From Pseudomonadota bacterium (GTDB taxonomy: Bacteria > Desulfobacterota > Syntrophorhabdia > Syntrophorhabdales > Syntrophorhabdaceae), in NCBI GenBank assembly GCA_026388255.1, contig JAPLKC010000023.1, positions 1-51,442 on the forward strand: a stretch of DNA of 51,442 nucleotides, given 5' to 3'. Every line of letters starts with the position of its first letter. Within the stretch, counting starts at the first letter, position 1. Of this stretch, positions 15-15,845 are shown one piece after another. The translations under genes and the position numbers were made by a program. Below the pieces are notes generated by a model. The model saw only the letters and a list, made by a program, of their open reading frames with translations, did not search any database and had not been told where the DNA came from.

Positions 15-1655
15 ATGAGAGAATTGGAATACGATGGCATTATCATCGGAGCAGGCCCCAACGGCCTGACAACAGCAGGTTATTTAACAAAGGCAGGTTT
101 GAAGATTGCAATCCTGGAAAGGAGATATGAGATCGGCGGAGGGTTAGCCACAGAGAACCTTCTCCTTCCCGGTATGCTTGTTGACAGTCATGCCATCTAC
201 CACATGATGGTAGATTATGCACCTCCAATGAGGGATTTTGAACTGGAGACAAAGTATGACCTGAAATGGATCTACCCGGAGCTTCAGATTGTTATGCCCT
301 TTATGGACGGAACATATCTTGCCCTGTACAGCGATCCCAAAAAGTCAGCAGAGTCTATTGCGCAGTTTTCAAAAAAGGATGCAGAGACCTTCCTTAACTT
401 TGCCAATATATCCGAAGAAGCTATGGATATATTCCTTGCCCCGGCAAGTTATGTGAATCCTCTTCCCAGCATTGAGCAGGCAGCAAAGCTCGAACTTCAT
501 CCTGCCACCAAATGGGATGATGAACTCACGGGATTCACACCGAAACAGATTGTAGATTCCTGGTTTGAGAATGATAAGGTACGTGCATTATTTCTCTATT
601 GCGCCACCATGTGGGGACTTGATTATGACCTTGAAGGCCTCGGATACCTTGTGCCTCTCATGATAAACCGTGCATGGCATTTCAAGCTGTCTCACATGGG
701 TTCCCACCACATAGCACATCTTATGGGGAAATATATATCAGAGAACGGCGGCAGGGTAATAAGCGGATGCGAAATAAAGAGAATTGTCATTGAGAACAAT
801 GAGGCCAAGGGAGTTGAACTTAAAGACGGCACAATTCTCAAGGCAAAGAAGTTTGTCTGCAGCACCCTTAATCCGCACCAGACCTTCTATGACATGGTGG
901 GAAAAGAACATCTCGACAAGGAACTGATCACAAGGCTTGACGAGTGGCATTATTCCGACATGAGCTTTTTTACTACACACCTGGCCCTGACAGAGAAACC
1001 GAAATTCAAGATATTTGAAAAGCATCCGGAACTTGAGAACGCACTTATCTATGTAATCGGATATGAGAGCGAACAGGATCTTGTCGATCACTTTGAAGCT
1101 TCAAAAAGAGGAGAACTGCATGACGGCGGTTTCAACTGCTGCTTCCCCTCCATTCATGATCCAATCCGTATGCATCGACATGAAGGCAGTTTTGTCAAAC
1201 ACATCGGTCTTATCTCCATGGAATGCGCACCATACAACCTTAAGGATGGCGGTGGCCTCGGATGGAACAAACACAGAAGACCCTATGCAGAACGCTGCAA
1301 GGCCATACTGGAAAAATATGCACCAAATATGAATAAAGATACCATAGTATGGGATTATATCAGTACGCCTTTAGACACTGAGAATAAATTCCCTGATATG
1401 AAGCAGGGATGTTTTAAACAGGGCGCATATCTCCCGCTCCAGATGGGATTTATGAGACCCAATGAATACTGCGGCCAGCATGATACGCCAATAAAGAATC
1501 TCTATGTCGGTGGAGCCTCCACACACTCCGGCGGTATGATTACCTACGGTCCCGGCTTTAATGCAGCAGAAAAGATTGCAGAGAATCTGGGGATTAAGAA
1601 ATGGTGGCCTGAACCACGGGGCGTTAAAGAAGCAAGAGATTTAGGACTATTTTAG
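15..1655 (+). CDS. CrtI/phytoene-desaturase-type FAD oxidoreductase (first paralogue)
   Basis: Flavin-dependent amine-oxidase/phytoene-desaturase-type oxidoreductase, 546 residues. The N-terminus carries the Rossmann dinucleotide motif GAGPNG (about residues 13-18), followed about 20 residues later by a strand ending in LER that would bind the FAD ribose. The C-terminus (about 495-520) has the second FAD-contact motif of this family, YVGGAST followed by a GG and PGFNAA stretch. A perfect AAGGAGG lies 7 bp before the ATG. The family oxidises or saturates C-C bonds in hydrophobic substrates such as carotenoids, but members in anaerobes act on unknown compounds. The gene is first in a tightly spaced operon whose start is outside the window, and it is paired with a second paralogue at 2124. 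Family assignment is firm and substrate is unknown. Confidence 0.88.
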   Translation: MRELEYDGIIIGAGPNGLTTAGYLTKAGLKIAILERRYEIGGGLATENLLLPGMLVDSHAIYHMMVDYAPPMRDFELETKYDLKWIYPELQIVMPFMDGTYLALYSDPKKSAESIAQFSKKDAETFLNFANISEEAMDIFLAPASYVNPLPSIEQAAKLELHPATKWDDELTGFTPKQIVDSWFENDKVRALFLYCATMWGLDYDLEGLGYLVPLMINRAWHFKLSHMGSHHIAHLMGKYISENGGRVISGCEIKRIVIENNEAKGVELKDGTILKAKKFVCSTLNPHQTFYDMVGKEHLDKELITRLDEWHYSDMSFFTTHLALTEKPKFKIFEKHPELENALIYVIGYESEQDLVDHFEASKRGELHDGGFNCCFPSIHDPIRMHRHEGSFVKHIGLISMECAPYNLKDGGGLGWNKHRRPYAERCKAILEKYAPNMNKDTIVWDYISTPLDTENKFPDMKQGCFKQGAYLPLQMGFMRPNEYCGQHDTPIKNLYVGGASTHSGGMITYGPGFNAAEKIAENLGIKKWWPEPRGVKEARDLGLF

Positions 1656-1679
1656 TAACTGGAATAAAAGGAGGATACC

Positions 1680-2090
1680 ATGTTTATGCGATCAACCGGT
1701 TTAGGAAGGACATTACTCACTGGTAAAGTGTCGAACATTTTTGCTACCACAGTTGTACCTTCTACGTTGGAAGAACCTCAAGAGGGTGTCACGGAACCTG
1801 TGCGTATGATGATGATGATGGAGATTGTGAACCCTGTGCACTGGACAGTACGTGCCTTTTTGGATCCATCTGATTTAAGAAAGATAGTGAAGGTAATAGT
1901 GACAAATCCGTTACTCATCCTCAAGGGTATAAAGTTCTTTTTTTCAAAAGACCCTGATTACGGGGAATTGGCAAAGGTAGAAGCATCTGCCCCTAAAGCA
2001 GATGCGGGAAAGGCGCCGAAAGGACCAGCCTCAGTACCGGGACCTGGCGCCATACCAAAGGGACCGGGCGCCATACCATCAAGAGCATGA
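1680..2090 (+). CDS. 136-residue protein of unknown function between the two FAD oxidoreductases
   Basis: I do not recognise a family. The start is well supported by AAAGGAGG 8 bp upstream, and the gene sits 24 bp after the first oxidoreductase and 33 bp before the second, so it is co-transcribed with both. The protein has a run of five methionines (residues 43-47, encoded by an ATG repeat), then a hydrophobic/basic stretch (about 75-95: KIVKVIV, LLILKGIKFFF) that could be amphipathic or membrane-associated. Its low-complexity tail is rich in Ala, Pro, Gly and Lys, with GPGAIP repeated at the end. There is no signal peptide and no obvious metal or cofactor motif. Position suggests a small partner or membrane tether for the flavoproteins, which is inference only. 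Confidence 0.75.
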   Translation: MFMRSTGLGRTLLTGKVSNIFATTVVPSTLEEPQEGVTEPVRMMMMMEIVNPVHWTVRAFLDPSDLRKIVKVIVTNPLLILKGIKFFFSKDPDYGELAKVEASAPKADAGKAPKGPASVPGPGAIPKGPGAIPSRA

Positions 2091-2123
2091 ATTTAATGAA
2101 GATATAAGAATAAGGAGGGCATT

Positions 2124-3806
2124 ATGGCAGATAAAAAGTACGATGCGGTTATAGTAGGCGGTGGGCATCATGCTACAATCATAGCCTGCTATTTGCAGAG
2201 AGCCGGTTTAAAGACGGCCATGTTTGAAAGATGGCATGAAATGGGTGGCGGTGCATGTGGTGAGGAACTGCCTGTACCGGGATTTATCCAGAATGTATGC
2301 GCACATTTTACGCGTTTTTATACAAACCCGGCATACAGTGATTTTGACCTGAGAGATCATGGACTGGTCTACCTGTTCCCTGAGAACAACGAGGCATGGA
2401 TCTATCCTGACGGCAGCTACATATTGGGTAAGACGATCTTCCCGGTTGTTGATCCTCTTACCGGAAGGGCAGAGTTCTCTCAGGAGGCTGCTGATTATAC
2501 CATTAAAGAAATAGCAAAAATCAATAAAGATGATGCAAATACTGTTGAGGATATTATAAGGAGATTTAAAAACAAGTGGAGAAAAGCATTTGGACTGTAC
2601 CGATACACAGGTCCGGCTGAGTGGGGTAATGGACCCGATCCTCTTGAAGCGCTTTTTGATGACCCGATAGATGGACTTGATCGTGATATCGCCTTAGGGA
2701 CAGTTGGCGAAATTGCCACGAAGATGTTCAAGAGTCCTGAGATGCAAACATTTTATATGAGGGCAATTCAGACTTCAAACGGTCTTTTTCCGCAGGACAG
2801 ACCCGGGCCATACTGGCACATCCATGCTCTTGGTCTCATTCTTTCCGTCGATGCCGCAGCAATCGTAACCGGTGGCACTCATAGCATTACCCATGCACTT
2901 CTTCGTGCCTTTGAAAAATACGGCGGCGAATTCTTTGTTCTTAATGAGGTCAAGAAGGTACTGAGCGATAACAAAAAGGCAACTGGAATCGAACTGGTAA
3001 ACGGCGATAGGATTTTTGCCGATATGGTAATCAGTGACTTAAGCATTGAGCTCACAATGGACGTAGCAGGCAAGGAAAACTGGCCGGCCGATCTCTGGGC
3101 AAGAGGCCAGAAACTTAAAGAGAAACCCCCGACACTTGATGATAAAGCATATGAGAGAACCCAACTTCTATGGGGTAATATTGCACTTATGGATGCACCG
3201 GTTTATCCGCAGAATCCCGAACTGGGCATGGTTCCGAGATTATACTTCGGTGAAGCAAACCCAGAGTACTTCCTGAGCGGACAGTACCAGAGGGATCGGT
3301 GGGAAAAAGGTATTTCCGACAAGTTATATCTCCTCGTTGCCCCTGATGTTCAATGGGACAAGACCCGCGCACCGGCTGGACGGTTTGCAGCCCTTGTCGA
3401 AGAGTTTACCTGCCCATGGAGGAACTTTTCAGAAAGAGAATGGCTGAAGATGAAAAAGGAGATTGAATTCAGGATGATTGAAGAGTGGGGAAAATATGCA
3501 CCTAATGTCAATATGGAAAACTTCATATCTGCCTGGATTGCAACTCCGGATGATGTGGTTAACAGGAACCCCTGTATGCCTCAGGGTGGCTGGGGCGCAT
3601 TGGATGCCCATTACGAATGCTCCGGCAGGTTGAGACCATTCCCTGAAATATCGGGATACCGTTTGCCATTAAAGAATTACTATCTCTGTTCCTCGGCGGC
3701 ACACTCTGCGCACGGTATAGGGCGTGGCAGCAGCTATGCCTGCTACAAGACGATTGCAGAAGATTTTGGACTTAAATACAAGCCGTGGGAAGAACGCGGG
3801 TGGTAG
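2124..3806 (+). CDS. CrtI-type FAD oxidoreductase (second, divergent paralogue)
   Basis: A 560-residue paralogue of the gene at 15, with an N-terminal FAD fold and the C-terminal desaturase region (about 518-550, YLCSSAAHSAHG and RGSSYACY). The Rossmann loop is altered: GGGHHA replaces the usual GxGxxG, so the third glycine is alanine and two histidines sit in the loop. The start has AAGGAGG 8 bp upstream. Paired CrtI-like genes in one operon suggest either a heteromeric enzyme or two successive redox steps on one hydrophobic substrate. With the changed loop this copy may bind FAD differently or play a structural role. Family call is firm; function is inferred. Confidence 0.85.
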   Translation: MADKKYDAVIVGGGHHATIIACYLQRAGLKTAMFERWHEMGGGACGEELPVPGFIQNVCAHFTRFYTNPAYSDFDLRDHGLVYLFPENNEAWIYPDGSYILGKTIFPVVDPLTGRAEFSQEAADYTIKEIAKINKDDANTVEDIIRRFKNKWRKAFGLYRYTGPAEWGNGPDPLEALFDDPIDGLDRDIALGTVGEIATKMFKSPEMQTFYMRAIQTSNGLFPQDRPGPYWHIHALGLILSVDAAAIVTGGTHSITHALLRAFEKYGGEFFVLNEVKKVLSDNKKATGIELVNGDRIFADMVISDLSIELTMDVAGKENWPADLWARGQKLKEKPPTLDDKAYERTQLLWGNIALMDAPVYPQNPELGMVPRLYFGEANPEYFLSGQYQRDRWEKGISDKLYLLVAPDVQWDKTRAPAGRFAALVEEFTCPWRNFSEREWLKMKKEIEFRMIEEWGKYAPNVNMENFISAWIATPDDVVNRNPCMPQGGWGALDAHYECSGRLRPFPEISGYRLPLKNYYLCSSAAHSAHGIGRGSSYACYKTIAEDFGLKYKPWEERGW

Positions 3807-3847
3807 AAGATTGAAAAAACCTAAGATTCAGTGAAAGTGTATCATAT

Positions 3848-4711
3848 ATGAAACCTCATCCGGAATGCGGCGCATGTCTTGTTCATTGGGTGTTTGAAAG
3901 GACGGCGCCGTATACCCCTGAAGGTGGAACAGCCGTCCTCGTCAGGAACATAGTTGGAGTACTGCTAAGCGATGTTTCACCACAGGCGAACGTTGGTTCT
4001 CTGTGCAATGGAACAGTACATGCTGTTTTTGATTCAACACCCGGGCTTCCCCAACATTATGAGGATCTTAAGCATAAAAGCAATGAAAATGCAAAAATGA
4101 TCCTGGTTGAGGCCATGGAATACATAAATAAAGAAGAAACACTGGAAGGCAGACTGTCAAGAGCCTGCTTTCTTGCCGCTGCTGCCAATATTGCCCCTCT
4201 GAATGCACCTTCAAGTCCTTACACTTTTCAGGAAATACGCGATTTGATGCATCTCGGAGATGCTAAGATGGCTGTAATGGGTGACCTTTTCGGGGCCCTT
4301 AAGAATGCCCGCCATGTGTTTTATGTAACAGATAATGCAGGTGAAATAGGTTTTGACTCCCTTGTTATTCGTCAGATTAAGGATATGGGATTGAGAATTA
4401 CTCTTGTAGTAAAAAAGCAGACCTTTTTTGAAGATGCAACCATGATTGACGTCAACACCTTCGGTCTTGAGGGGCTGGTTGATGAAATAATAACGGTTCC
4501 AGGTTTTCTTGCACCCGATAAAATGGATAAAGAAACTGCAGCATCCTTCAAATCCTGTGACCTTGTTATTGCCAAAGGCACCGGAAGTTACGAGGCCATA
4601 CATGGCGAGATACCTGATAAGAAAGCAGTTTATATGCTGAAGATAAAGTGCAAACCCATAGCAAGAGAATTGGGGATGGATGGGGGAAATGTTATTGTGA
4701 AGGTTGAATAA
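3848..4711 (+). CDS. DUF89 / ARMT1-like metal-dependent phosphatase
   Basis: 287 residues matching the DUF89 damage-control phosphatase family. The N-terminus begins with a CxxC pair (C8, C11) seen in prokaryotic members. The central metal-site motif DNAGEIGFD falls near residue 160, and the C-terminal motifs AKGTGSYEA and KCKPIARELG follow. DUF89 enzymes hydrolyse phosphate esters, often unwanted or damaged sugar phosphates, with Mn, Ni or Co. No strong ribosome-binding site is visible before the ATG, and the gene is 41 bp after the second oxidoreductase. In an operon that also encodes an ATP-dependent phosphotransferase, a phosphatase could remove the phosphate after use or clear a stalled intermediate; that link is inference. 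A 20-bp perfect palindrome overlaps the stop codon. Confidence 0.85.
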   Translation: MKPHPECGACLVHWVFERTAPYTPEGGTAVLVRNIVGVLLSDVSPQANVGSLCNGTVHAVFDSTPGLPQHYEDLKHKSNENAKMILVEAMEYINKEETLEGRLSRACFLAAAANIAPLNAPSSPYTFQEIRDLMHLGDAKMAVMGDLFGALKNARHVFYVTDNAGEIGFDSLVIRQIKDMGLRITLVVKKQTFFEDATMIDVNTFGLEGLVDEIITVPGFLAPDKMDKETAASFKSCDLVIAKGTGSYEAIHGEIPDKKAVYMLKIKCKPIARELGMDGGNVIVKVE

Positions 4712-4729
4712 AAAATGTATACATTTTTT
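4710..4729. promoter_or_regulatory. 20-bp perfect A/T palindrome between the DUF89 and SDR genes
   Basis: The sequence reads AAAAAATGTA then its exact reverse complement TACATTTTTT, starting on the last two bases of the DUF89 stop codon. It could be an operator dyad, or a weak hairpin with a U-rich 3' side acting as a partial terminator. It lies 38 bp before the SDR start codon. The symmetry is seen directly; the role is not known. Confidence 0.4.
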
Positions 4730-4767
4730 TTATTTAAGTCTTTAAATTTAGAGAAAGGAGGTATACA

Positions 4768-5523
4768 ATGATAAGTCTGGAGGGAAAAGTTGCGATTGTC
4801 ACCGGTGGTGCTAAAGGACTCGGAAGGGCGTTTTGTGAAGGATTTGCCCGGGAAGGAGCAAAGGTTTTAGCGGTGACCCGTAAAGACTTGAAGGGGTTGG
4901 AAGAAACAGTAAAGGCAGTGAGAGAAGCAGGATCTGAAGGGGAATATCTCCAAATTGATGTGACATCCAGGGCTGATAATGAGAGAATGGTAAAATTTGC
5001 AATGGAGAGGTTCGGCAGGATTGATATCCTGGTAAACAACGCGGCATTCTACTATGGTGTTGAGCGCAAGGGATTTGATGAAATCAGCGATGAAGAGTGG
5101 GACATGATGATGTCAGTAAATGTCAAAGGTTCCTGGCTTCCAACTGTTGCAGTCTTTCCTTTTATGAAACAGGCTGGAAAAGGAAAGATTGTCAACCTGA
5201 CATCAGAGGTCTTTTTTACGGGTTCCCATGGTTTTGTTCACTACGTAGCAACTAAGGGCGCTGTTGTTGGACTGACCAGGGCTTTGGCCATTGAACTCGG
5301 GCCGTATAACATCTGTGTCAATGCGGTTGCACCCGGGTTCACGGATACAGAAGCAAGCCGCACAATTGCAGATGTCACAAAGTACGATACATCCAAAACA
5401 CCTCTTAAAAGACTCGGTGTGGCGGAAGATATCGTCGGAGCTACGATTTTTCTTTCTTCAGATGCAGCAGATTTCATAACTGGACAGACCATCCTTGTGG
5501 ATGGAGGAAAAGCAATGCATTAA
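4768..5523 (+). CDS. Short-chain dehydrogenase/reductase (SDR)
   Basis: Classical SDR, 251 residues, the usual length. It has TGGAKGLG (cofactor loop, about residues 13-20), NNAA (about 91-94), a catalytic Ser in LTSE, and the YVATK catalytic pair (Tyr and Lys) near residue 159, followed by NAVAPG and a C-terminal GQTILVDGG. It therefore should be an active NAD(P)-dependent alcohol dehydrogenase or ketone reductase. The start has AAAGGAGG 7 bp upstream. It lies 56 bp after the DUF89 gene and 41 bp before the phosphohistidine protein, so it is probably in the same operon. Substrate cannot be told from sequence. Confidence 0.92.
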   Translation: MISLEGKVAIVTGGAKGLGRAFCEGFAREGAKVLAVTRKDLKGLEETVKAVREAGSEGEYLQIDVTSRADNERMVKFAMERFGRIDILVNNAAFYYGVERKGFDEISDEEWDMMMSVNVKGSWLPTVAVFPFMKQAGKGKIVNLTSEVFFTGSHGFVHYVATKGAVVGLTRALAIELGPYNICVNAVAPGFTDTEASRTIADVTKYDTSKTPLKRLGVAEDIVGATIFLSSDAADFITGQTILVDGGKAMH

Positions 5524-5564
5524 AAAGAGCAATGCACCAAAAAAATCGAAAAAGGGGAGGATTT

Positions 5565-7247
5565 ATGAAGATGTACGATTGTGTTCCAGGTCTTGAGTTT
5601 GATGAGAGTTTGGATTTTGCGGTTTCGCCGGCTTGGTTTCTGGATGCTACGCACTCTGTGCCGCCATGGACACCTATGTTCGGTTGGTTCTGGATCAATT
5701 TCTGCCGGCACGGCATGCAGTATGGCGCAGAAAAGCTTTCTTTACCCACGGTAAAGGGATGGGACTGGCGGTTTAAGGATGGAGGCGGCTATCTGGCCTT
5801 GCTCATTGTTCAGGATCCTGAGGAAAGAAAGGCTCGTGAGGAGCGTTTCAAAGTTGCTATTATGCCTTTCATCCAGGATTTCAGCGGCTTGTGGAAGGGT
5901 TTTGTGGACGAGATTGTAGGGAAGTACGATGCGCTGAAGATCGATCTCGATAAAGCCTCCAATATAGATCTTCTGGAGAATTTTGAAGGGACGATCAATG
6001 TCTGCAAGCGCATGTGGGAAATACACATGTATATGATGTATGGCGTCTATACCGCATTCGTACTCTTTGAACAGATGACACAGCAGCTCCTCGGTTTTAA
6101 TGACTCAAGCCCAGAATTCCACAGGCTTATGAGCGGTTTTGACAACAAGAGCTTCCAGGTGGACAAGGGCCTTTTTGAATTTGCCCGGAAAGCTGAGGCT
6201 ATGGGATTGAAAGATATATTTCTTTCCACTGAAGCATCAAAGATGAGAGATGCCCTCAAACCCACGTATAACGGACAGGAATTTCTCAAGGCCTTTGATG
6301 ATTTTATGGAAAAGGAAGCGGGATGGCGTTTGGATAGGATGGCAGAGATCAATTGCCCCACATGGCTTGAGGATCCTACCCCGGCTTTTTCCGTGATCAA
6401 AATGGCCATTACTAAGGGAATGAACTACAACCTCGATGAAGACAGGAAGAGACTTGAAGCTGAGAGAATCGTTGCCGAGAATGAGATATTGGCAAAGATA
6501 TCCCCAGAACAGAAGGGTTGGTTCAAAACGATGCTGAAACTTGCGCAGGACTGCGCCTGGTTCAGCGAAGAACACAACCATTATCTTGACCTTTACGCGC
6601 ACGCCATGGTCAGACGGAGTGTTATAGGTATAGGAAAACGCTTTGCAAAATTAGGCGCGATCGAAACTGCTGATGATATATTCTACCTGATACCCGATGA
6701 GGTGAGAAAGGCATGCATAAGCCCTGATATGTTCAACCTCAGACCGATTGTAGACCGCAGAAAGGCTGACTGGCAGGGCTGGTGTGCGAAAGATAACCCG
6801 CCGGCATTTATGAAAGAAGGTTTCACTTTTGAGGATGCAATGGGAGGATTGATCGGATCCATGGATCCCATCGCCTTAAAGGTCGTTGTGGGCAGTATGC
6901 CTGTGGTAAGACCGGAACTCAAGGCTGATCTCTTCGGTGTTTGCGGTTCGCCAGGCGTGGCTGAAGGGACTGTGAAGGTTGTCTGGAAAGAGGAAGAACT
7001 ATCGAAGATACAAAAAGGAGATATTATGGTAGCGCCTACTACCTCTCCAAGCTGGACCCCCGTTTTCTCTATTCTGGGAGGGGTTATCGTGGATAGAGGC
7101 GCGAGCCTTTCCCACGCTGCAATCGTCGGCAGGGAATATGGCATACCCGTTGTCATGAATACATTCGAAGGCACAAAGGTCTTGAAAGATGGAATGAGGA
7201 TAAGGCTGGACGCAAATATGGGTGCTATATACATCCTTGACAAGTAA
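5565..7247 (+). CDS. PEP-synthase-like protein: substrate domain plus swivelling phosphohistidine domain
   Basis: 560 residues when started at the ATG preceded by AAAGGGGAGG; an in-frame ATG 33 bp upstream has no ribosome-binding site. Residues about 1-460 are a mostly helical, family-specific region with an aromatic-rich N-terminus (WFLDATHS, PPWTPMFGWFW), like the substrate domain of rifampin phosphotransferase or the 70-kDa subunit of phenylphosphate synthase. The last about 80 residues are the PEP-utilising mobile domain, with the phosphoacceptor in LSHAAIVGREYGIP (H517). There is no ATP-grasp domain; that is encoded by the gene at 7444. By family mechanism the pair would turn ATP into AMP and phosphate while passing the beta-phosphate through H517 to a substrate. 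The acceptor is unknown. Confidence 0.85.
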   Translation: MKMYDCVPGLEFDESLDFAVSPAWFLDATHSVPPWTPMFGWFWINFCRHGMQYGAEKLSLPTVKGWDWRFKDGGGYLALLIVQDPEERKAREERFKVAIMPFIQDFSGLWKGFVDEIVGKYDALKIDLDKASNIDLLENFEGTINVCKRMWEIHMYMMYGVYTAFVLFEQMTQQLLGFNDSSPEFHRLMSGFDNKSFQVDKGLFEFARKAEAMGLKDIFLSTEASKMRDALKPTYNGQEFLKAFDDFMEKEAGWRLDRMAEINCPTWLEDPTPAFSVIKMAITKGMNYNLDEDRKRLEAERIVAENEILAKISPEQKGWFKTMLKLAQDCAWFSEEHNHYLDLYAHAMVRRSVIGIGKRFAKLGAIETADDIFYLIPDEVRKACISPDMFNLRPIVDRRKADWQGWCAKDNPPAFMKEGFTFEDAMGGLIGSMDPIALKVVVGSMPVVRPELKADLFGVCGSPGVAEGTVKVVWKEEELSKIQKGDIMVAPTTSPSWTPVFSILGGVIVDRGASLSHAAIVGREYGIPVVMNTFEGTKVLKDGMRIRLDANMGAIYILDK

Positions 7248-7443
7248 CAACAACGAAAAAAGGCAAAGGGCAAACCAAAAGGTGATGATTGCATCCTTTT
7301 GGATGAGTTATAAAGCCGAGAAAGGATTTTTATCAGATTCCAGGTACGGGGTTCAGGTTTATTACCTGAGCTCTCGTCCCCTGGATTCGAAAATCCTTAA
7401 GTCATACTGACTTGTCGGGATGTCCTTTGATTAGGAGACTTCT
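7248..7443 (+). other. Hairpin-rich intergenic region between the two phosphotransferase genes (candidate structured RNA)
   Basis: Within 196 bp there are several strong inverted repeats. Stem 1 is CCAAAAGG (7275-7282) with CCTTTTGG (7295-7302). A nested element follows: AAGGATTTT (7322-7330) with AAAATCCTT (7390-7398), enclosing TCCAGG (7339-7344) with CCTGGA (7380-7385), enclosing TTCAGGT (7352-7358) with ACCTGAG (7364-7370) over a 5-base loop. Last is AAGTCA (7399-7404) with TGACTT (7408-7413). The next gene starts 30 bp later with its own GGAG. No intrinsic terminator U-run follows any stem. The region could be an mRNA processing or stability element, an attenuator, or a novel cis-regulatory RNA. 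I do not recognise a known riboswitch. Confidence 0.5.
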
Positions 7444-8487
7444 ATGGATATGAAAGAAATTTATTGGTTGGATGAACTATCTAAAGAATATAGAGAAGCT
7501 GTGGGAAATAAATGTGCAAACCTGGGAGAGCTGATAAAAATCGGCCTTCGTGTGCCCTATGGATTTGCTCTTTCCATAAAAGCTTATGAAACATTTATGG
7601 AACAATCAGGTTTAAAGGAAAAGGTAATACAGATAGTTGAAAAGGAAACAAATGCAGGCCTTGATGTTGATAAAGAAATAGACAGGATGATAGCGATGAG
7701 CGCGACAATAAGAGAGGCCATCGAGGAGTGTGAAATGCCGCCGGGTATGGCCGCGCTCATCGCTGAATTCTACATGGAGCTTCAAAAAAAGGTAGGTATC
7801 ACCGATGTAGCCTGCGCTGTAAGATCAAGCGGGGCCGTAAGTATGCCGGGCCAGATGGAAACCTATCTGAATATAAAGGGTGAATCTGAGATCATCAGGA
7901 ATGTAAAAAAGGTCTGGGCAAGCGCCTTTACAACACGGGCAATCGTCTTCAGGATAAAGAGCAATATGCCTATTTCATGGGCGCCTATCGGCATTGCCGT
8001 AATCATGATGATCGATGCAAAAAGCGCCGGTGTTACATTGACTGTTCTCCCCAGTGCAGGCGATCTTGATCGTGCCATAGTTGAAGGTAATTTTGGTCTT
8101 GGAGAAAGTGTTGTCAGCGGGGATATAACGCCCGACTCTTTTATAATAAACAAAATTGATATGTTAATAGAATCAAGATCTGTTGCTGAAAAGACTAAGA
8201 TGGTTGTCTATGGCGAAATTGGTACAACAATTGCTGAAGTGCCGGTTGAGTTAAAAAAATCGCCTTGTCTCGATGATAACGAAATACTCGAGATAGTAAG
8301 AATTGGCAAGGAAGTTGAAAATTACTTCGGTTTTCCCCAGGATATGGAATGGGCCGTGGATAAAAGATTCCCTTTTCCGGAAAATATTTTCTGGGTGCAG
8401 GCCAGAGGAGCGAAATACACAAAAAAAGATGTTGGAAAGGATGAAGCGTATGTAGTAGACATGATGCTTCAACTCTTTAGAAAGTAG
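7444..8487 (+). CDS. PEP/pyruvate-binding ATP-grasp subunit of a split PEP-synthase-like phosphotransferase
   Basis: 347 residues covering only the N-terminal nucleotide-binding domain of PEP synthase or pyruvate phosphate dikinase. Motifs in order: NKCANLGEL (Lys near residue 22, phosphate contact), AVRSSGAV (Arg contacting ATP, about 128), GQMETYLNI, the TTRAIVFR segment, GLGESVVSGDITPDSF (about 219), and MEWAVD followed by WVQARG near 310-320. All are as expected for an ATP-binding enzyme. It lacks both the phosphohistidine and the PEP-binding domains, so it must work with the protein encoded at 5565. This division matches subunits 1 and 2 of phenylphosphate synthase. Ribosome-binding site TAGGAG is 8 bp upstream. 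Confidence 0.88.
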   Translation: MDMKEIYWLDELSKEYREAVGNKCANLGELIKIGLRVPYGFALSIKAYETFMEQSGLKEKVIQIVEKETNAGLDVDKEIDRMIAMSATIREAIEECEMPPGMAALIAEFYMELQKKVGITDVACAVRSSGAVSMPGQMETYLNIKGESEIIRNVKKVWASAFTTRAIVFRIKSNMPISWAPIGIAVIMMIDAKSAGVTLTVLPSAGDLDRAIVEGNFGLGESVVSGDITPDSFIINKIDMLIESRSVAEKTKMVVYGEIGTTIAEVPVELKKSPCLDDNEILEIVRIGKEVENYFGFPQDMEWAVDKRFPFPENIFWVQARGAKYTKKDVGKDEAYVVDMMLQLFRK

Positions 8488-8497
8488 AAAATTTGAA

Positions 8498-8587
8498 ATG
8501 TATATAAGGATGACTTTTTCCAAGGTTAAACCGGGCAAAGAGGTCAATACAAGCTCTGATCCTATAATTTTACAAATCTTTTTTTAG
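8498..8587 (+). CDS. 29-codon ORF resembling the start of an alpha/beta-barrel protein; small gene or remnant
   Basis: The reading frame begins with ATG and encodes MYIRMTFSKVKPGKE, typical of the first strand and turn of ferredoxin-like dimeric alpha/beta-barrel (ABM-type) proteins. It then stops after 29 codons, with the TAG overlapping the AGGAGG of the next gene. There is no convincing ribosome-binding site. Since the next gene is itself made of two alpha/beta-barrel repeats, this may be the beheaded start of a third copy or of a lost paralogue. It might also serve as a leader ORF. Confidence 0.3.
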   Translation: MYIRMTFSKVKPGKEVNTSSDPIILQIFF

Positions 8588-8595
8588 GAGGTATC

Positions 8596-9255
8596 ATGGC
8601 CATACTTTTTGTACAGCACTGGAGCGTTGCGAAGAACAAAGAAAGAGAGTATGAAAACTTTATTTTGGGAACACATATACCTGTTTTAGAGAAATTGGGA
8701 TTAAGGGTTGTCGGAGGCTTTTATGTGGTAGTAGGTGCAGGACCTCACATAGCTGCCATATCCACAACTGACAGTGTTGAGGAATTCCAAAAAATTGTGA
8801 CTTCTGCTGAATATACCAAGCTTCTTGAACAACTTTTTCCTCTTATATTGAACTATTCAAGCAAACTCTATGTATCCTACGGTCCAATCGACGTAGGAAG
8901 ATACAATATCCAGTTTGGTATGTGGAGATTTAATCAATATTTTGATATTATTCCAGGAATGGCTGAAGAATATAAGAATTTTGTCAAGAATGAATTCATC
9001 CCGGAAATGGAAGGGTTAGGAATAAAGATAACAAATATCTGGAAGGTAGTTATTGGTTCGGGACCATTCATCCTTGTTGAAGGCAGCAGCCCCGGCTTAC
9101 AGGATATTGCCAAGTCTGTGGATACGGACAAATACAGAGCCCTTATGAGACAATTGAAGTCAAAATACATAATGAACTTTCAGAGCAGGATAATGGCTCC
9201 GACAAGAAGAGTGGAAATTCCGTATTTTATAAAAGGCCTGACCGAAGGGATATAG
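8596..9255 (+). CDS. Tandem alpha/beta-barrel (NIPSNAP/ABM-like) protein, about 25 kDa
   Basis: 219 residues with AGGAGG 6 bp before the ATG. The protein is an internal duplication. Residues about 4-98 (FVQHWSV, EYENFILGTHIPVLEKLG, VVVGAGPHIAA) and about 107-205 (FGMWRFN, EYKNFVKNEFIPEMEGLG, VVIGSGPFILV) align along their length, each with the beta-alpha-beta-beta-alpha-beta pattern of a ferredoxin-like dimeric barrel. Such barrels bind small hydrophobic ligands or form homodimers; here both halves are in one chain. No cofactor motif is seen. It is the last intact gene of the operon and similar in mass to the third, 24-kDa subunit of phenylphosphate synthase, but that subunit has CBS domains and this one does not. 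Confidence 0.7.
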   Translation: MAILFVQHWSVAKNKEREYENFILGTHIPVLEKLGLRVVGGFYVVVGAGPHIAAISTTDSVEEFQKIVTSAEYTKLLEQLFPLILNYSSKLYVSYGPIDVGRYNIQFGMWRFNQYFDIIPGMAEEYKNFVKNEFIPEMEGLGIKITNIWKVVIGSGPFILVEGSSPGLQDIAKSVDTDKYRALMRQLKSKYIMNFQSRIMAPTRRVEIPYFIKGLTEGI

Positions 9256-9805: not shown

Positions 9806-10720
9806 TCAGACAGAAAAGGTCGAGTGAATAATTTCAATAACCTTCTTAGCGCTCGGGCTTAGCAAGTGCTCTGAGAGAAAAATAAGCTGTACATCTATGT
9901 ATATGTTAATATCGGCCATACTCAAAATCTTGAGCTGGCCTTCCTCTAATTCATTCTTGACCACTGCCGGGAACATAAGCGCCATACCCTTGCCTGTTAA
10001 AAGATATTTCTTTATCATTTCCAGATTTTCTGCTTCAAAAACAATATTCGGTGTTACCTTATATTTGTCAAAAACATCCAAAAGGGCCAGTCTCGTAGCA
10101 GAACCTTCTCCTGCAACAAGTATGGGCTGATGCAACATGTCATCTATTGAAATATGCTCCTTTTGGGCAAGCGGATTCTTGTTACTAACTACAAACTCAA
10201 TCTTCTCGTTTGATATCGTAATGGCCGTAATCTTATCATTTATGGGAACTTTAGGAATAATGCCTATATTATCTTTGAATTGCATTATTTTTTCAATGAT
10301 TTCATGTGAAGTGCCTTCAGTAATACTTACCTGGATGTTCGGGTAGTGATCGCTAAAGATGTTTATGATCAGGGGCAGATATGTCTGAGAAAGAGACCTT
10401 GATGCTCCAATACGCAGCACGCCCCTGCCTGCATTGTTATATGATGTCAGAATATTTTCAATTTCCTTTGACTTTTTGTATACTTCCTCGGCTATGGGGA
10501 GGATTTCTTTGCCCACATCGGTGAGTTGGAGCTGTTTACCTGCGTTGATGAAGAGTTTTGTACCAAATTGTCTTTCCAGGCATTTGATCTTGGTGGTTAC
10601 TGCAGGTTGCGTAAGGAATAGTTTTGTTGCTGCGTTGCTGAAACTTCTTTCCTTTGCTACAAAGAAAAAAGCTATAAGATTTTCGAGATTTATCTTGATG
10701 TTTTCCATAAAGATTATCAT
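9806..10720 (-). CDS. LysR-family transcriptional regulator
   Basis: 304 residues, the usual LysR length. The N-terminal winged helix-turn-helix is clear (LIAFFFVAKERSFSNAATKL, then TQPAVTTKIKCLE). The effector domain begins near residue 95 (RIGASRSL). A second ATG four codons in gives the usual family N-terminus (MENIKINLENL) and may be the true start; neither has a good ribosome-binding site. It is transcribed toward the metabolic operon and divergently from the membrane-protein gene at 10957. LysR proteins commonly control a neighbouring catabolic operon in response to a pathway intermediate; which neighbour is unknown. Confidence 0.93.
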   Translation of the reverse strand: MIIFMENIKINLENLIAFFFVAKERSFSNAATKLFLTQPAVTTKIKCLERQFGTKLFINAGKQLQLTDVGKEILPIAEEVYKKSKEIENILTSYNNAGRGVLRIGASRSLSQTYLPLIINIFSDHYPNIQVSITEGTSHEIIEKIMQFKDNIGIIPKVPINDKITAITISNEKIEFVVSNKNPLAQKEHISIDDMLHQPILVAGEGSATRLALLDVFDKYKVTPNIVFEAENLEMIKKYLLTGKGMALMFPAVVKNELEEGQLKILSMADINIYIDVQLIFLSEHLLSPSAKKVIEIIHSTFSV

Positions 10721-13239: not shown

Positions 13240-14352
13240 ATGCTGAGCAGACGGAACTTCATAAAAATAGCCTGTCTTACCCCTCTTATCCTGAACATAA
13301 AACCGGAGATTCTTCTTGGCAGCGACGGTAATCCTTTAAAAGAGGCACTGTATTACGAAAAATATGACGAAAAAAAGCAGATCGTATGGTGTCAATTGTG
13401 CCCCAGAGGATGCACCATTTCTGAAGCTACTTCAGGCTTCTGCCGGGCAAGAAAAAATATAAAAGGAAAGCTCTACTCACTCGGATATGCCCTACCCTGC
13501 GCCATCCACATTGACCCTATTGAAAAAAAACCTTTTTTTAATGTGCTTCCCAGAAGTCTCAGCTTTTCCATTGCCAGTGCGGGATGCAACCTGAGATGTA
13601 AATTCTGTCAGAACTGGCAGATATCGCAGGTCTCCCCGCTTGAAACGGAAAACCGTTATCGCCCTCCCGACATAATTGTTTCAATGGCAAAAGCAAACAA
13701 CTGCAAAAGCATTGCCTATACATATACCGAGCCGACAAACTTTTTTGAATACATGTTTGATACAGCCAGGATAGCAAAAAGCAAGGGCATCCTGAACGTA
13801 TCGCACTCAAACGGATATATCAATCCGGAGCCGTTAAAAGAGCTGTGCAAATATCTTGATGCGGTAAACATTGATCTAAAGGGATTCAGTCAGGAGTTTT
13901 ACAACAAAGTATGTGAGGCAGAACTCAACCCGGTCCTTGAAACGATAAAAACATTAAAGAAATCAGGAGTGTGGGTAGAGATTACGAACCTTGTAATTTC
14001 AGGTTATAACGATGATCCGAAGATGATTGCAAATATGTGTGAATGGTTAAAAAACAATGCCGGGATTGATACGCCTGTGCATTTTTCCCGGTTCTACCCC
14101 ATGTATAAGCTAACAGGGGTCTCTCCTACCCCGGTGAGCACACTGGACAGGGCAAGGGAAATAGCGTTGAAAACAGGGCTGCATTACGTTTATATCGGGA
14201 ATGTACCGGGACATCCGGGGGAAAACACATACTGTCCGAAATGCAGAAAAATAGTGATTAAGAGAGCCGGATACAGCATGTTGGAAAATAATATGAAGGC
14301 CGGGAAATGTAAATTTTGTGATGAAAAGATAGGAGGCATATGGAACGTTTAA
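13240..14352 (+). CDS. amrS: AmmeMemoRadiSam system radical SAM enzyme
   Basis: 370 residues. The radical-SAM cluster motif is CNLRCKFC (C116, C120, C123). An N-terminal Cys group lies at C51, C54, C58 and C68, and a C-terminal zinc-ribbon-like set CPKC/CKFC is at C332, C335, C357 and C360. The N-terminus reads LSRRNFIKIACLTPLILNI, a twin-arginine-like export signal before a hydrophobic stretch, which is unusual for a radical-SAM enzyme but recurrent in this family. The gene overlaps the next by 13 bp, and that gene encodes the Memo and AMMECR1 partners in one chain. The family is named for this three-part association; its reaction is not established to my knowledge. Confidence 0.92.
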   Translation: MLSRRNFIKIACLTPLILNIKPEILLGSDGNPLKEALYYEKYDEKKQIVWCQLCPRGCTISEATSGFCRARKNIKGKLYSLGYALPCAIHIDPIEKKPFFNVLPRSLSFSIASAGCNLRCKFCQNWQISQVSPLETENRYRPPDIIVSMAKANNCKSIAYTYTEPTNFFEYMFDTARIAKSKGILNVSHSNGYINPEPLKELCKYLDAVNIDLKGFSQEFYNKVCEAELNPVLETIKTLKKSGVWVEITNLVISGYNDDPKMIANMCEWLKNNAGIDTPVHFSRFYPMYKLTGVSPTPVSTLDRAREIALKTGLHYVYIGNVPGHPGENTYCPKCRKIVIKRAGYSMLENNMKAGKCKFCDEKIGGIWNV

Positions 14353-15845
14353 AAGCAATTTTTAATTTTCAATTTCGAATTTCGAATTTTAAAAACTGGA
14401 GCATAACAACATTCATTATATGTTTTTTTATTTTTCCGGCACTGTCTGCGGCTGAAGAAGGGTCACTGAAAGTAAGAAAACCGGTCTATGCCGGTTCTTT
14501 TTATCCGGCAGACAGGGACGCACTTGAAAAGAAAATAGATGATTTTCTAAAAGAAGCAGAATCAAAGGTTGAAAAGGTGAATTCTCCTTTGATCGGCATA
14601 ATGGTCCCCCATGCCGGTTATGAGTATTCCGGGGAGGTTGCCTCATATGCATACAGTCAATTGAGAGGCAGACATTATAAAACAGTCATTATCATAGGCT
14701 CAAGCCACAGAATGCCCTTCAGAGGCATTTCCATCTACCCTTCCGGCGCCTGGGAAACACCTTTAGGCAAGGTGGAAATAGATCAGAAGGTTGCACAGAG
14801 GCTTATGGAACAGTGCAAGGCCATCAAAGTCTTTTCTCCTGCCTTTGAACAGGAACATTCCCTTGAGGTCCAGTTGCCCTTTTTACAAAAAACATTGAAA
14901 TCCTTCAGGATCGTTCCATTGCTTATCGGGTCAATGAACACTGATGATTACAGAACGCTTTCCGATGCACTCGTGAAAATATTGAGGCAAAACCCGAAAG
15001 AGACCCTTATCGTAGTTTCATCGGATATGTCTCATTATCACACATACAATCAGGCAAATCAGATGGATAAGCCCGCATTAAAGGAAATCGAGGCACTTAA
15101 TACGGATAAGCTGTTTGATGGCTTAAATAATGGAGAATATGAACTGTGCGGCGCCCAGGGGGTAATTGCTTTACTGATGGCATCAAAAACACTGAATGCC
15201 GAGGCAAAGACCCTACGCTATGCCAATTCCGGGGATGTTACAAGGGATAAGGGTCGTGTTGTCGGGTATGGCTCGGTTGCCTTCTACTATCCTGATGACA
15301 GCCATGCACTCAATAAAAAAGAACAGAAGACACTCCTTATGATCGCACGGAAAACCGTGGATGAGTATATTACAAAAGGGAATATCCCGGGATTTCAGAT
15401 AAAAGAGGGCAAGCTCCTTGAGAAGAGGGGCGCTTTTGTCACTCTCACAAAAAAAAGTGAGTTGAGGGGGTGTATAGGGTATATTGTGCCTGTTGAGCAG
15501 CTTTACAGGGCAGTTTCTGAAATGGCAATCGCAGCTTCAAGCAGAGACCCCCGTTTTCCACCTGTTTCCAAGGATGAACTGAAAGACATTCACATCGAGA
15601 TATCCGTGCTAAGCCCGTTAAAATTGATTAGCAGCACAGACGAGGTTGAGGTGGGCAGACACGGGCTATATATAACCAGAGGAAACTACTCGGGCCTTCT
15701 ACTCCCGCAGGTTGCCACAGAGCAGAAGTGGAACAAGGAAGAATTCCTGAAACAGACATGCCACAAGGCCGGTCTACCCATAAATGCCTGGAAAGAAAAG
15801 GGAACGAACATTTATACCTTCACAGCCCAAATTTTTTCAGAATAA
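14340..15845 (+). CDS. Memo-AMMECR1 fusion (AmmeMemoRadiSam proteins B and A in one chain)
   Basis: 501 residues. An N-terminal hydrophobic helix (about 21-38, ending in ALSAAEE) looks like a signal peptide. Residues about 45-315 are the Memo domain with the metal-site residues of human MEMO1 conserved: H91 (VPHAGYEYSG), H123 (GSSHR) and C270 (LCGAQG), plus EHSLEVQLPF near 172. Residues about 330-501 are AMMECR1 (GAFVTL, ELRGCIGY, PRFPPVS, LLLPQVA). The N-terminal peptide FNFQFRISNFK is encoded by an A/T-rich repeat around 14356-14394, so the true mature protein probably starts after it. Function is likely coupled to AmrS; the fusion supports a direct complex. Confidence 0.9.
   Translation: MERLKAIFNFQFRISNFKNWSITTFIICFFIFPALSAAEEGSLKVRKPVYAGSFYPADRDALEKKIDDFLKEAESKVEKVNSPLIGIMVPHAGYEYSGEVASYAYSQLRGRHYKTVIIIGSSHRMPFRGISIYPSGAWETPLGKVEIDQKVAQRLMEQCKAIKVFSPAFEQEHSLEVQLPFLQKTLKSFRIVPLLIGSMNTDDYRTLSDALVKILRQNPKETLIVVSSDMSHYHTYNQANQMDKPALKEIEALNTDKLFDGLNNGEYELCGAQGVIALLMASKTLNAEAKTLRYANSGDVTRDKGRVVGYGSVAFYYPDDSHALNKKEQKTLLMIARKTVDEYITKGNIPGFQIKEGKLLEKRGAFVTLTKKSELRGCIGYIVPVEQLYRAVSEMAIAASSRDPRFPPVSKDELKDIHIEISVLSPLKLISSTDEVEVGRHGLYITRGNYSGLLLPQVATEQKWNKEEFLKQTCHKAGLPINAWKEKGTNIYTFTAQIFSE
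14356..14394. repeat. Short A/T repeat with TTCGAA units inside the Memo gene's 5' end
   Basis: The stretch contains AATTTCGAATTTCGAATTTT, with direct TTTCGAA repeats that are also palindromic. It encodes residues about 6-18 of the fusion protein, just before the signal helix. It looks like an intergenic simple repeat captured into the coding region. Confidence 0.5.

Follow-up and report, generated by a model that had tools for sequence, protein, structure and literature searches.

Anaerobes live without oxygenases, and the known ways in which they attack alkylated phenols and terpenoids are few: fumarate addition, p-cresol methylhydroxylase, Mo hydroxylases and UbiD carboxylation. An eight-gene cluster at the start of contig JAPLKC010000023.1 (assembly GCA_026388255.1), from a member of the Syntrophorhabdaceae, raises the question of whether there is a further way, in which ATP is spent on phosphorylating the substrate before it is oxidised. 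The window analysed here is the whole stretch of 51,442 nt; its base 1 is base 1 of the contig (C23 of genome G000; G, C and L numbers denote genomes, contigs and loci), and any genes upstream of position 15, where the cluster begins, lie outside the contig. We give an even chance to the reading that the cluster encodes an O2-independent, phosphorylation-initiated oxidation of the side chain of a phenolic or similar hydrophobic substrate, a counterpart of the Cre pathway. In that aerobic pathway for 4-cresol the phenol is phosphorylated, the side chain is oxidised stepwise and the phosphate is removed, with the P450 system CreJEF using O2. The cluster suggests an additional strategy, one that costs ATP, occurs in several families within one phylum and joins two families of enzymes that are not known to act together.

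The eight open reading frames from which the original prediction started are all present on one strand, with intergenic gaps of 24-197 bases and the last frame ending at 9255. For g6 an in-frame ATG also lies upstream at 5532, and homologues favour the start at 5565. The features, with predicted functions and the basis of each assignment, are as follows.

15..1655, + strand: g1, predicted flavoenzyme alpha subunit, 546 amino acids (open reading frame, family scans, motif, conservation, alpha clade)
189..191, + strand: codon of g1 His59, predicted covalent flavin site, motif GMLVDSHA (motif as in PMC11061730)
1680..2090, + strand: g2, small protein of 136 amino acids between alpha and beta (no family; position conserved between g1 and g3)
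2124..3806, + strand: g3, predicted flavoenzyme beta subunit, 560 amino acids, Cys59 in place of the flavin-site His (open reading frame, family scan, motif, beta clade)
2298..2300, + strand: codon of g3 Cys59 (Cys in 15/15 kinase-linked beta subunits)
3848..4711, + strand: g4, predicted DUF89/ARMT1-like metal-dependent phosphatase, 287 amino acids (PF01937, E 7e-33; PDB 2ffj match)
4768..5523, + strand: g5, short-chain dehydrogenase/reductase (SDR), an alcohol dehydrogenase with a predicted alcohol-to-aldehyde step, 251 amino acids (family scan; 44% identity to the SDR of Cre-type clusters)
5565..7247, + strand: g6, predicted dikinase H subunit, 560 amino acids, with a substrate domain like that of rifampin phosphotransferase (RPH) and a swivel domain (domains, tree, fold search)
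7113..7115, + strand: codon of g6 His517, predicted catalytic histidine (alignment)
7444..8487, + strand: g7, predicted dikinase I subunit, 347 amino acids, ATP-grasp (PF01326, E 8e-79; PDB matches)
8596..9255, + strand: g8, duplicated ferredoxin-like alpha/beta barrel, 219 amino acids, conserved accessory protein of the g6-type dikinase clade (neighbourhood, predicted structure)

The dikinase pair and the flavoenzyme

Judged by its domains, g6/g7 is a two-component dikinase in anatomy, with substrate and swivel domains in one gene (H) and the ATP-grasp domain in a separate neighbouring gene (I), which is the architecture named 'two-component small-molecule dikinase' in PMC12167813. PF00391 matches residues 482-553 of g6 (E 1.5e-20), and the swivel histidine, His517, is present in all 16 sequences of an alignment and lines up with the histidine of PpsA and CreH. 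The sequence of g6 matches RPH across residues 230-559, and its predicted fold matches RPH over its length (E 7e-16, template modelling (TM) score 0.66), with RPH ranked first in the search and a mean pLDDT of 76 for the model, lower in the swivel domain. The family scan found no phosphoenolpyruvate (PEP)/pyruvate-binding domain in g6 or g7, and an identity as PEP synthase or PPDK was rejected on this absence and on the fold, which points to RPH. The layout that the original prediction had recognised, that of RPH and phenylphosphate synthase with H517 as the phosphohistidine, is thereby well supported.

The pair resembles HpeHI, CreHI and PpsAB (PMC12167813) in having an H subunit with a separate ATP-grasp I subunit, an RPH-like fold and no PEP-binding domain, but it differs from them in its clade, its motif and its genomic linkage. 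In a quick tree of 51 rows, with long branches and with HpeH not included, g6 falls within a 13-row clade (100*) apart from PpsA (L149, the phenylphosphate-carboxylase cluster taken for comparison) and the CreH-type sequences (L150, L151), while kinases linked to UbiD or to other carboxylases sit in clades other than that of g6. The possibility that the product of the gene at 5565 would group with PEP synthases or with a kinase of known substrate was thus not borne out. The swivel motif of g6, VxxGAxxxH, keeps the His and the first Gly of T/SxxGGxxxH but has Val at -8 and Ala at -4, both of which are the consensus among the aligned homologues; T/SxxGGxxxH describes the characterised dikinases and is not a definition of the family. 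The linkage is to a flavoenzyme and g8, not to a carboxylase or a P450. With RPH the pair shares the fold and the catalytic histidine, but RPH is a single polypeptide and a resistance enzyme, whereas g6/g7 is split and lies in a cluster that looks catabolic.

The genes g1 and g3 had been described as two CrtI-like oxidoreductases, of which the part that stands is that both are FAD flavoproteins. Their scores against the CrtI family are 71 and 31 bits, far under the cut-off of 238, and in the CrtI structure 4dgk no histidine aligns at the flavin site; the similarity is remote, the candidate was rejected, and the two are probably not carotenoid desaturases. They look instead like one heterodimeric enzyme of the CtmAB/delta-24-desaturase type with a predicted covalent flavin. 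A 2024 paper on stigmasterol (PMC11061730) describes, for each subunit of the delta-24 desaturase, a flavin bound covalently to the His of the motif G-F-L/R-X-N/S-T/L-H-A, and it describes the motif as common to CtmAB. In g1 the corresponding motif is GMLVDSHA, with His59 (some relatives have GFLHNTHA), and in g3 it is GFIQNVCA, with Cys59. Across the kinase-linked pairs this column is His in 15/15 alpha subunits and Cys in 15/15 beta subunits, whereas members of the family without kinase linkage mostly have His. A flavin-attachment His in both subunits, as in CtmAB and the delta-24 desaturase, was not found here, the beta subunit carrying Cys59, and for this reason we treat g1/g3 as working like CtmAB and do not class it as a member of that family. 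The likeness, drawn from published descriptions, extends to two paralogous neighbouring flavoprotein subunits, the flavin-site motif of alpha and a remote similarity to phytoene desaturase; the beta Cys, the extra g2 and the linkage to a kinase are features of the cluster itself.

A tree of the flavoproteins separates alpha from beta, with the pairs coming from single loci, and each of the two groups holds one kinase-linked clade (99*, 100*). The small g2, to which family scans and PHROGs assigned no family, is conserved between alpha and beta in most clusters with an invariant STGLGxT, P52 and W55, and probably serves the flavoenzyme as a small subunit or anchor. Two reports on flavoproteins of anaerobic benzene degradation (PMC13416013, PMC13101534) were considered as a match and rejected, since in their accessible parts the first describes proteins like VAO/PCMH and glycolate oxidase and neither cluster has a kinase pair. 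Many alpha/beta pairs of the g1/g3 family occur in the phylum without a kinase (L096-L106), some beside SDRs, as members of a large uncharacterised family. The sister species G001 has a second flavoenzyme cluster (L046:2897-6670, G001:C28) whose alpha is 95% identical to g1, against 90% for the first G001 copy, and whose beta is only 60% identical; recombination or gene conversion of alpha is possible.

The remaining genes agree with what had been proposed for them, a DUF89 phosphatase (PF01937), an SDR and a duplicated alpha/beta-barrel protein, the last on the basis of its predicted structure. The g4 protein matches the structural-genomics protein PDB 2ffj over its full length with the TDNAGE motif present, and it is predicted to remove phosphate. 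The g5 likeness to the SDR of Cre-type clusters on Rhodococcus plasmids is weak evidence alone, SDRs being a large family. For g8 the predicted structure has two ferredoxin-like repeats (pLDDT 89), and the family scan and PHROGs returned no family; a relationship to chlorite dismutase/HemQ was rejected, as the structural matches are at the level of the fold only (TM about 0.6, 7-13% identity). In most loci g8 accompanies the g6-type kinase clade, including loci without the alpha flavoprotein, which suggests that the role of g8 is tied to the kinase or to the phosphorylated intermediate.

Conservation and partner genes

The neighbourhood search that the original prediction called for found the gene set conserved in other genomes of the phylum. 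Orthologous clusters are present in G001, G007, G009 (on a partial contig), G037, G041 and G043, with changes in G018, and in further families in G142, G155, G229, G272, G273 and G292, so that the cluster is kept in the genus, the family, the order and distant families, and the flavoenzyme and kinase occur together in at least six family codes. A dispersed version is found in G318, and G089, G221 and G306 carry kinase and SDR with a beta-type flavoprotein alone. In a sample of 297 genomes of the phylum, 12 have a g1 homologue (at least 50% identity), 16 a g6 homologue (at least 40% identity) and 10 have both (Fisher p 4e-13, a value that ignores kinship and, the sampled genomes being related, overstates their independence).

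Several of these clusters contain genes for later steps of a degradative route. A molybdopterin aldehyde oxidoreductase is found in L043, L094 and L095 and by similarity in L192, and an aldehyde:ferredoxin oxidoreductase (AFOR) in L089, L090, L173 and L176 and by similarity in L175. Clusters L038 and L043 also encode a PaaK-like coenzyme A (CoA) ligase, as does L176 judged by similarity. Benzoyl-CoA-reductase-like genes adjoin L043, and the HD phosphatase encoded in L176 shares 37% identity with that of Cre. Electron-transferring flavoprotein alpha (ETF-alpha; L170) and HdrA-like plus CCG iron-sulphur proteins (L040, L173, L175) are plausible candidate electron acceptors. The genome of the window itself has an 88.7% identical PaaK-like ligase on contig C93, and at other places it carries several aldehyde-oxidoreductase-type genes of the Mo and W kinds, none assignable to the g1-g8 cluster. 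Inside the kinase-flavoenzyme clusters, that of the window included, neither UbiD nor a biotin-dependent carboxylase was recognised. The earlier statement that neither a carboxylase nor a CoA ligase is in view therefore stands for the cluster in the window, but a ligase does occur in clusters orthologous to it and on another contig of the genome.

The absence of a biotin-dependent carboxylase (HpeCBA) also separates the cluster from the Hpe pathway and XccABC, which act on hydroxyacetophenones (PMC9618137) and which it resembles in placing a dikinase first and a phosphatase later. A separate dikinase-carboxylase cluster exists in the same genome (L050:5495-19392, G000:C94). This second dikinase pair has an H subunit of another clade and is Hpe-like in logic, with genes for a biotin carboxylase, a PYC/OADA-type carboxyltransferase, UPF0261, an AMP-ligase, a thiolase, and a protein that has both ACP_syn_III_C and ChsH2-like OB domains. 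UPF0261 (Tm-1-like) genes lie beside dikinase clusters of differing clades (L041:12281-13525, L040:15837-17159, L092:12682-13908, L050:8845-10080).

Proposed pathway and its alternatives

What the sequence shows is which genes are present, how they are conserved and clustered together, their active-site residues and their folds; the substrate, the reactions and their order in the following scheme are all inferred from it. The g6/g7 pair would phosphorylate the hydroxyl group on a hydrophobic substrate that is most likely phenolic, converting ATP to AMP and Pi via phospho-His517, and the phosphate would act as a trap and a tag. The g1/g3 enzyme, with g2, would then remove two electrons at an activated benzylic or allylic C-H, with the hydroxyl coming from water, and so fill the role of CreJEF without O2. 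The SDR g5 would oxidise the alcohol to the aldehyde, and a Mo- or W-dependent aldehyde oxidoreductase, of the kind clustered in relatives, would oxidise the aldehyde to the acid. Finally, the DUF89 phosphatase g4 would take the phosphate off, and a PaaK-like ligase would form the CoA thioester that leads to ring reduction. The scheme names about ten genes and predicts the Cys-for-His change at the flavin site. Its more specific form, in which a dedicated dikinase clade, that of g6, puts a phosphate on an alkylphenol-like substrate to allow the O2-independent alpha/beta flavoenzyme, with Cys at one flavin site, to hydroxylate the side chain of the phosphorylated substrate with water, is tentative, and we hold it to be somewhat less probable than not.

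Among the closest known parallels are the Cre-type clusters of Rhodococcus plasmids, in which the genes are ordered P450, I, H, SDR, ferredoxin, reductase, HD phosphatase and aldehyde dehydrogenase, a set that matches the cre genes of C. glutamicum (creC-J) and their assigned roles. Both systems have a two-component dikinase, an SDR alcohol dehydrogenase, a phosphatase and the logic of side-chain oxidation. Where Cre has a P450 with ferredoxin and reductase, the window has the alpha/beta flavoenzyme, which would replace the P450 step if the reading is true, and no P450 (CreJ with CreE/CreF) was found among the scanned cluster proteins. The phosphatase is of the DUF89 type in the window and of the HD type (CreD) in Cre, with HD types again in relatives such as L176, and relatives carry a Mo/W aldehyde oxidoreductase in place of the Cre aldehyde dehydrogenase. 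The original prediction knew of no described pathway with such a set; the aerobic Cre pathway does share its logic, while no published description of the kinase-flavoenzyme combination was found in the literature searched, with subscription papers mostly outside that search. Its proposal that an alcohol is phosphorylated, oxidised and dephosphorylated gains good support for this logic from the anatomy and context, the substrate being only inferred.

Several observations weigh against side-chain oxidation of a phosphorylated phenol. With no more than 25-27% identity between g6 and either CreH or PpsA, a phenolic substrate is an analogy; the sequence does not fix the identity of the substrate, for which reason we did not adopt a cresol-specific label, nor does it tell whether the flavoenzyme would act on the phosphorylated or the free form. 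No aldehyde oxidoreductase was recognised beside the cluster of the window or those of its closest relatives, and L190-L192 have only a beta-type flavoprotein, so that alpha is dispensable in some clusters. Furthermore, CtmAB uses a high-potential acceptor, and PMC12583861 argues that the enzyme is unsuited to strongly reducing cells.

The main rival is that an isoprenoid or steroid alcohol is dehydrated at the cost of ATP, in which case the dikinase would phosphorylate a tertiary or secondary alcohol, loss of the phosphate would give an alkene, and allylic desaturation or hydroxylation by the CtmAB-like flavoenzyme would follow. Phosphorylated intermediates and a delta-24-desaturase of the g1/g3 type are both known in anaerobic sterol side-chain degradation, and the characterised relatives of the flavoenzyme use terpenes and sterols. 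However, the known 25-hydroxysteroid kinase, ruled out as a relative of g6/g7 on its published description, is a single gene product that transfers phosphate sequentially via a ternary complex and is no phosphohistidine dikinase, the cluster has DUF89 or HD phosphatase-type genes and no recognisable lyase, and the ligase is PaaK-like, of the arylacetate type. We consider dehydration unlikely.

Improbable, in our estimate, is a route of the phenylphosphate type, with the phosphorylated phenol carboxylated on the ring and the flavoproteins acting later on the ring or side chain. The kinase layout is that of PpsAB, and in G142 (L092) the cluster has as neighbour a further pair, of the PpsA type, accompanied by a UbiD carboxylase, but the lack of a recognised carboxylase inside the kinase-flavoenzyme clusters and the placing of UbiD- and carboxylase-linked kinases in other clades both weigh against it. 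A ligase like PigC/RedH, which would activate a carbonyl or hydroxyl as a phosphate and condense it with a second building block, so that the cluster would be biosynthetic, is favoured by the NCBIfam scores of g6, which are 113-116 bits for PigC and RedH, somewhat above the 87 bits for RPH. Against this, other biosynthetic genes were seen in none of the loci, which usually do include a phosphatase, the neighbouring genes have a catabolic look, with aldehyde oxidoreductases, a CoA ligase and benzoyl-CoA-reductase-like genes among them, and RPH came first in the fold search; we think such a role equally improbable. Least probable of all is a dikinase acting on an aromatic amine instead of a hydroxyl, as proposed for aniline in Desulfatiglans anilini, where PMC7500099 reports phenylphosphoamidate as an intermediate of a degradation that proceeds by way of synthases and carboxylases, since the cluster has no sign of amine chemistry and no deaminase was recognised in it.

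Surroundings of the cluster

Promoter and terminator scans gave predictions about as common as in shuffled sequence. Downstream of the cluster, on the minus strand, lies a gene for a LysR-type regulator (9806-10720), and LysR genes also adjoin the clusters in L043, L046, L089 and L092. Further on, a radical-SAM-like gene is followed by a MEMO/AMMECR1-like gene (13240-15845), both identified by eye. The contigs of the window's genome and of its sister species G001 both start shortly before g1, a coincidence suggestive of a repeat at this position.

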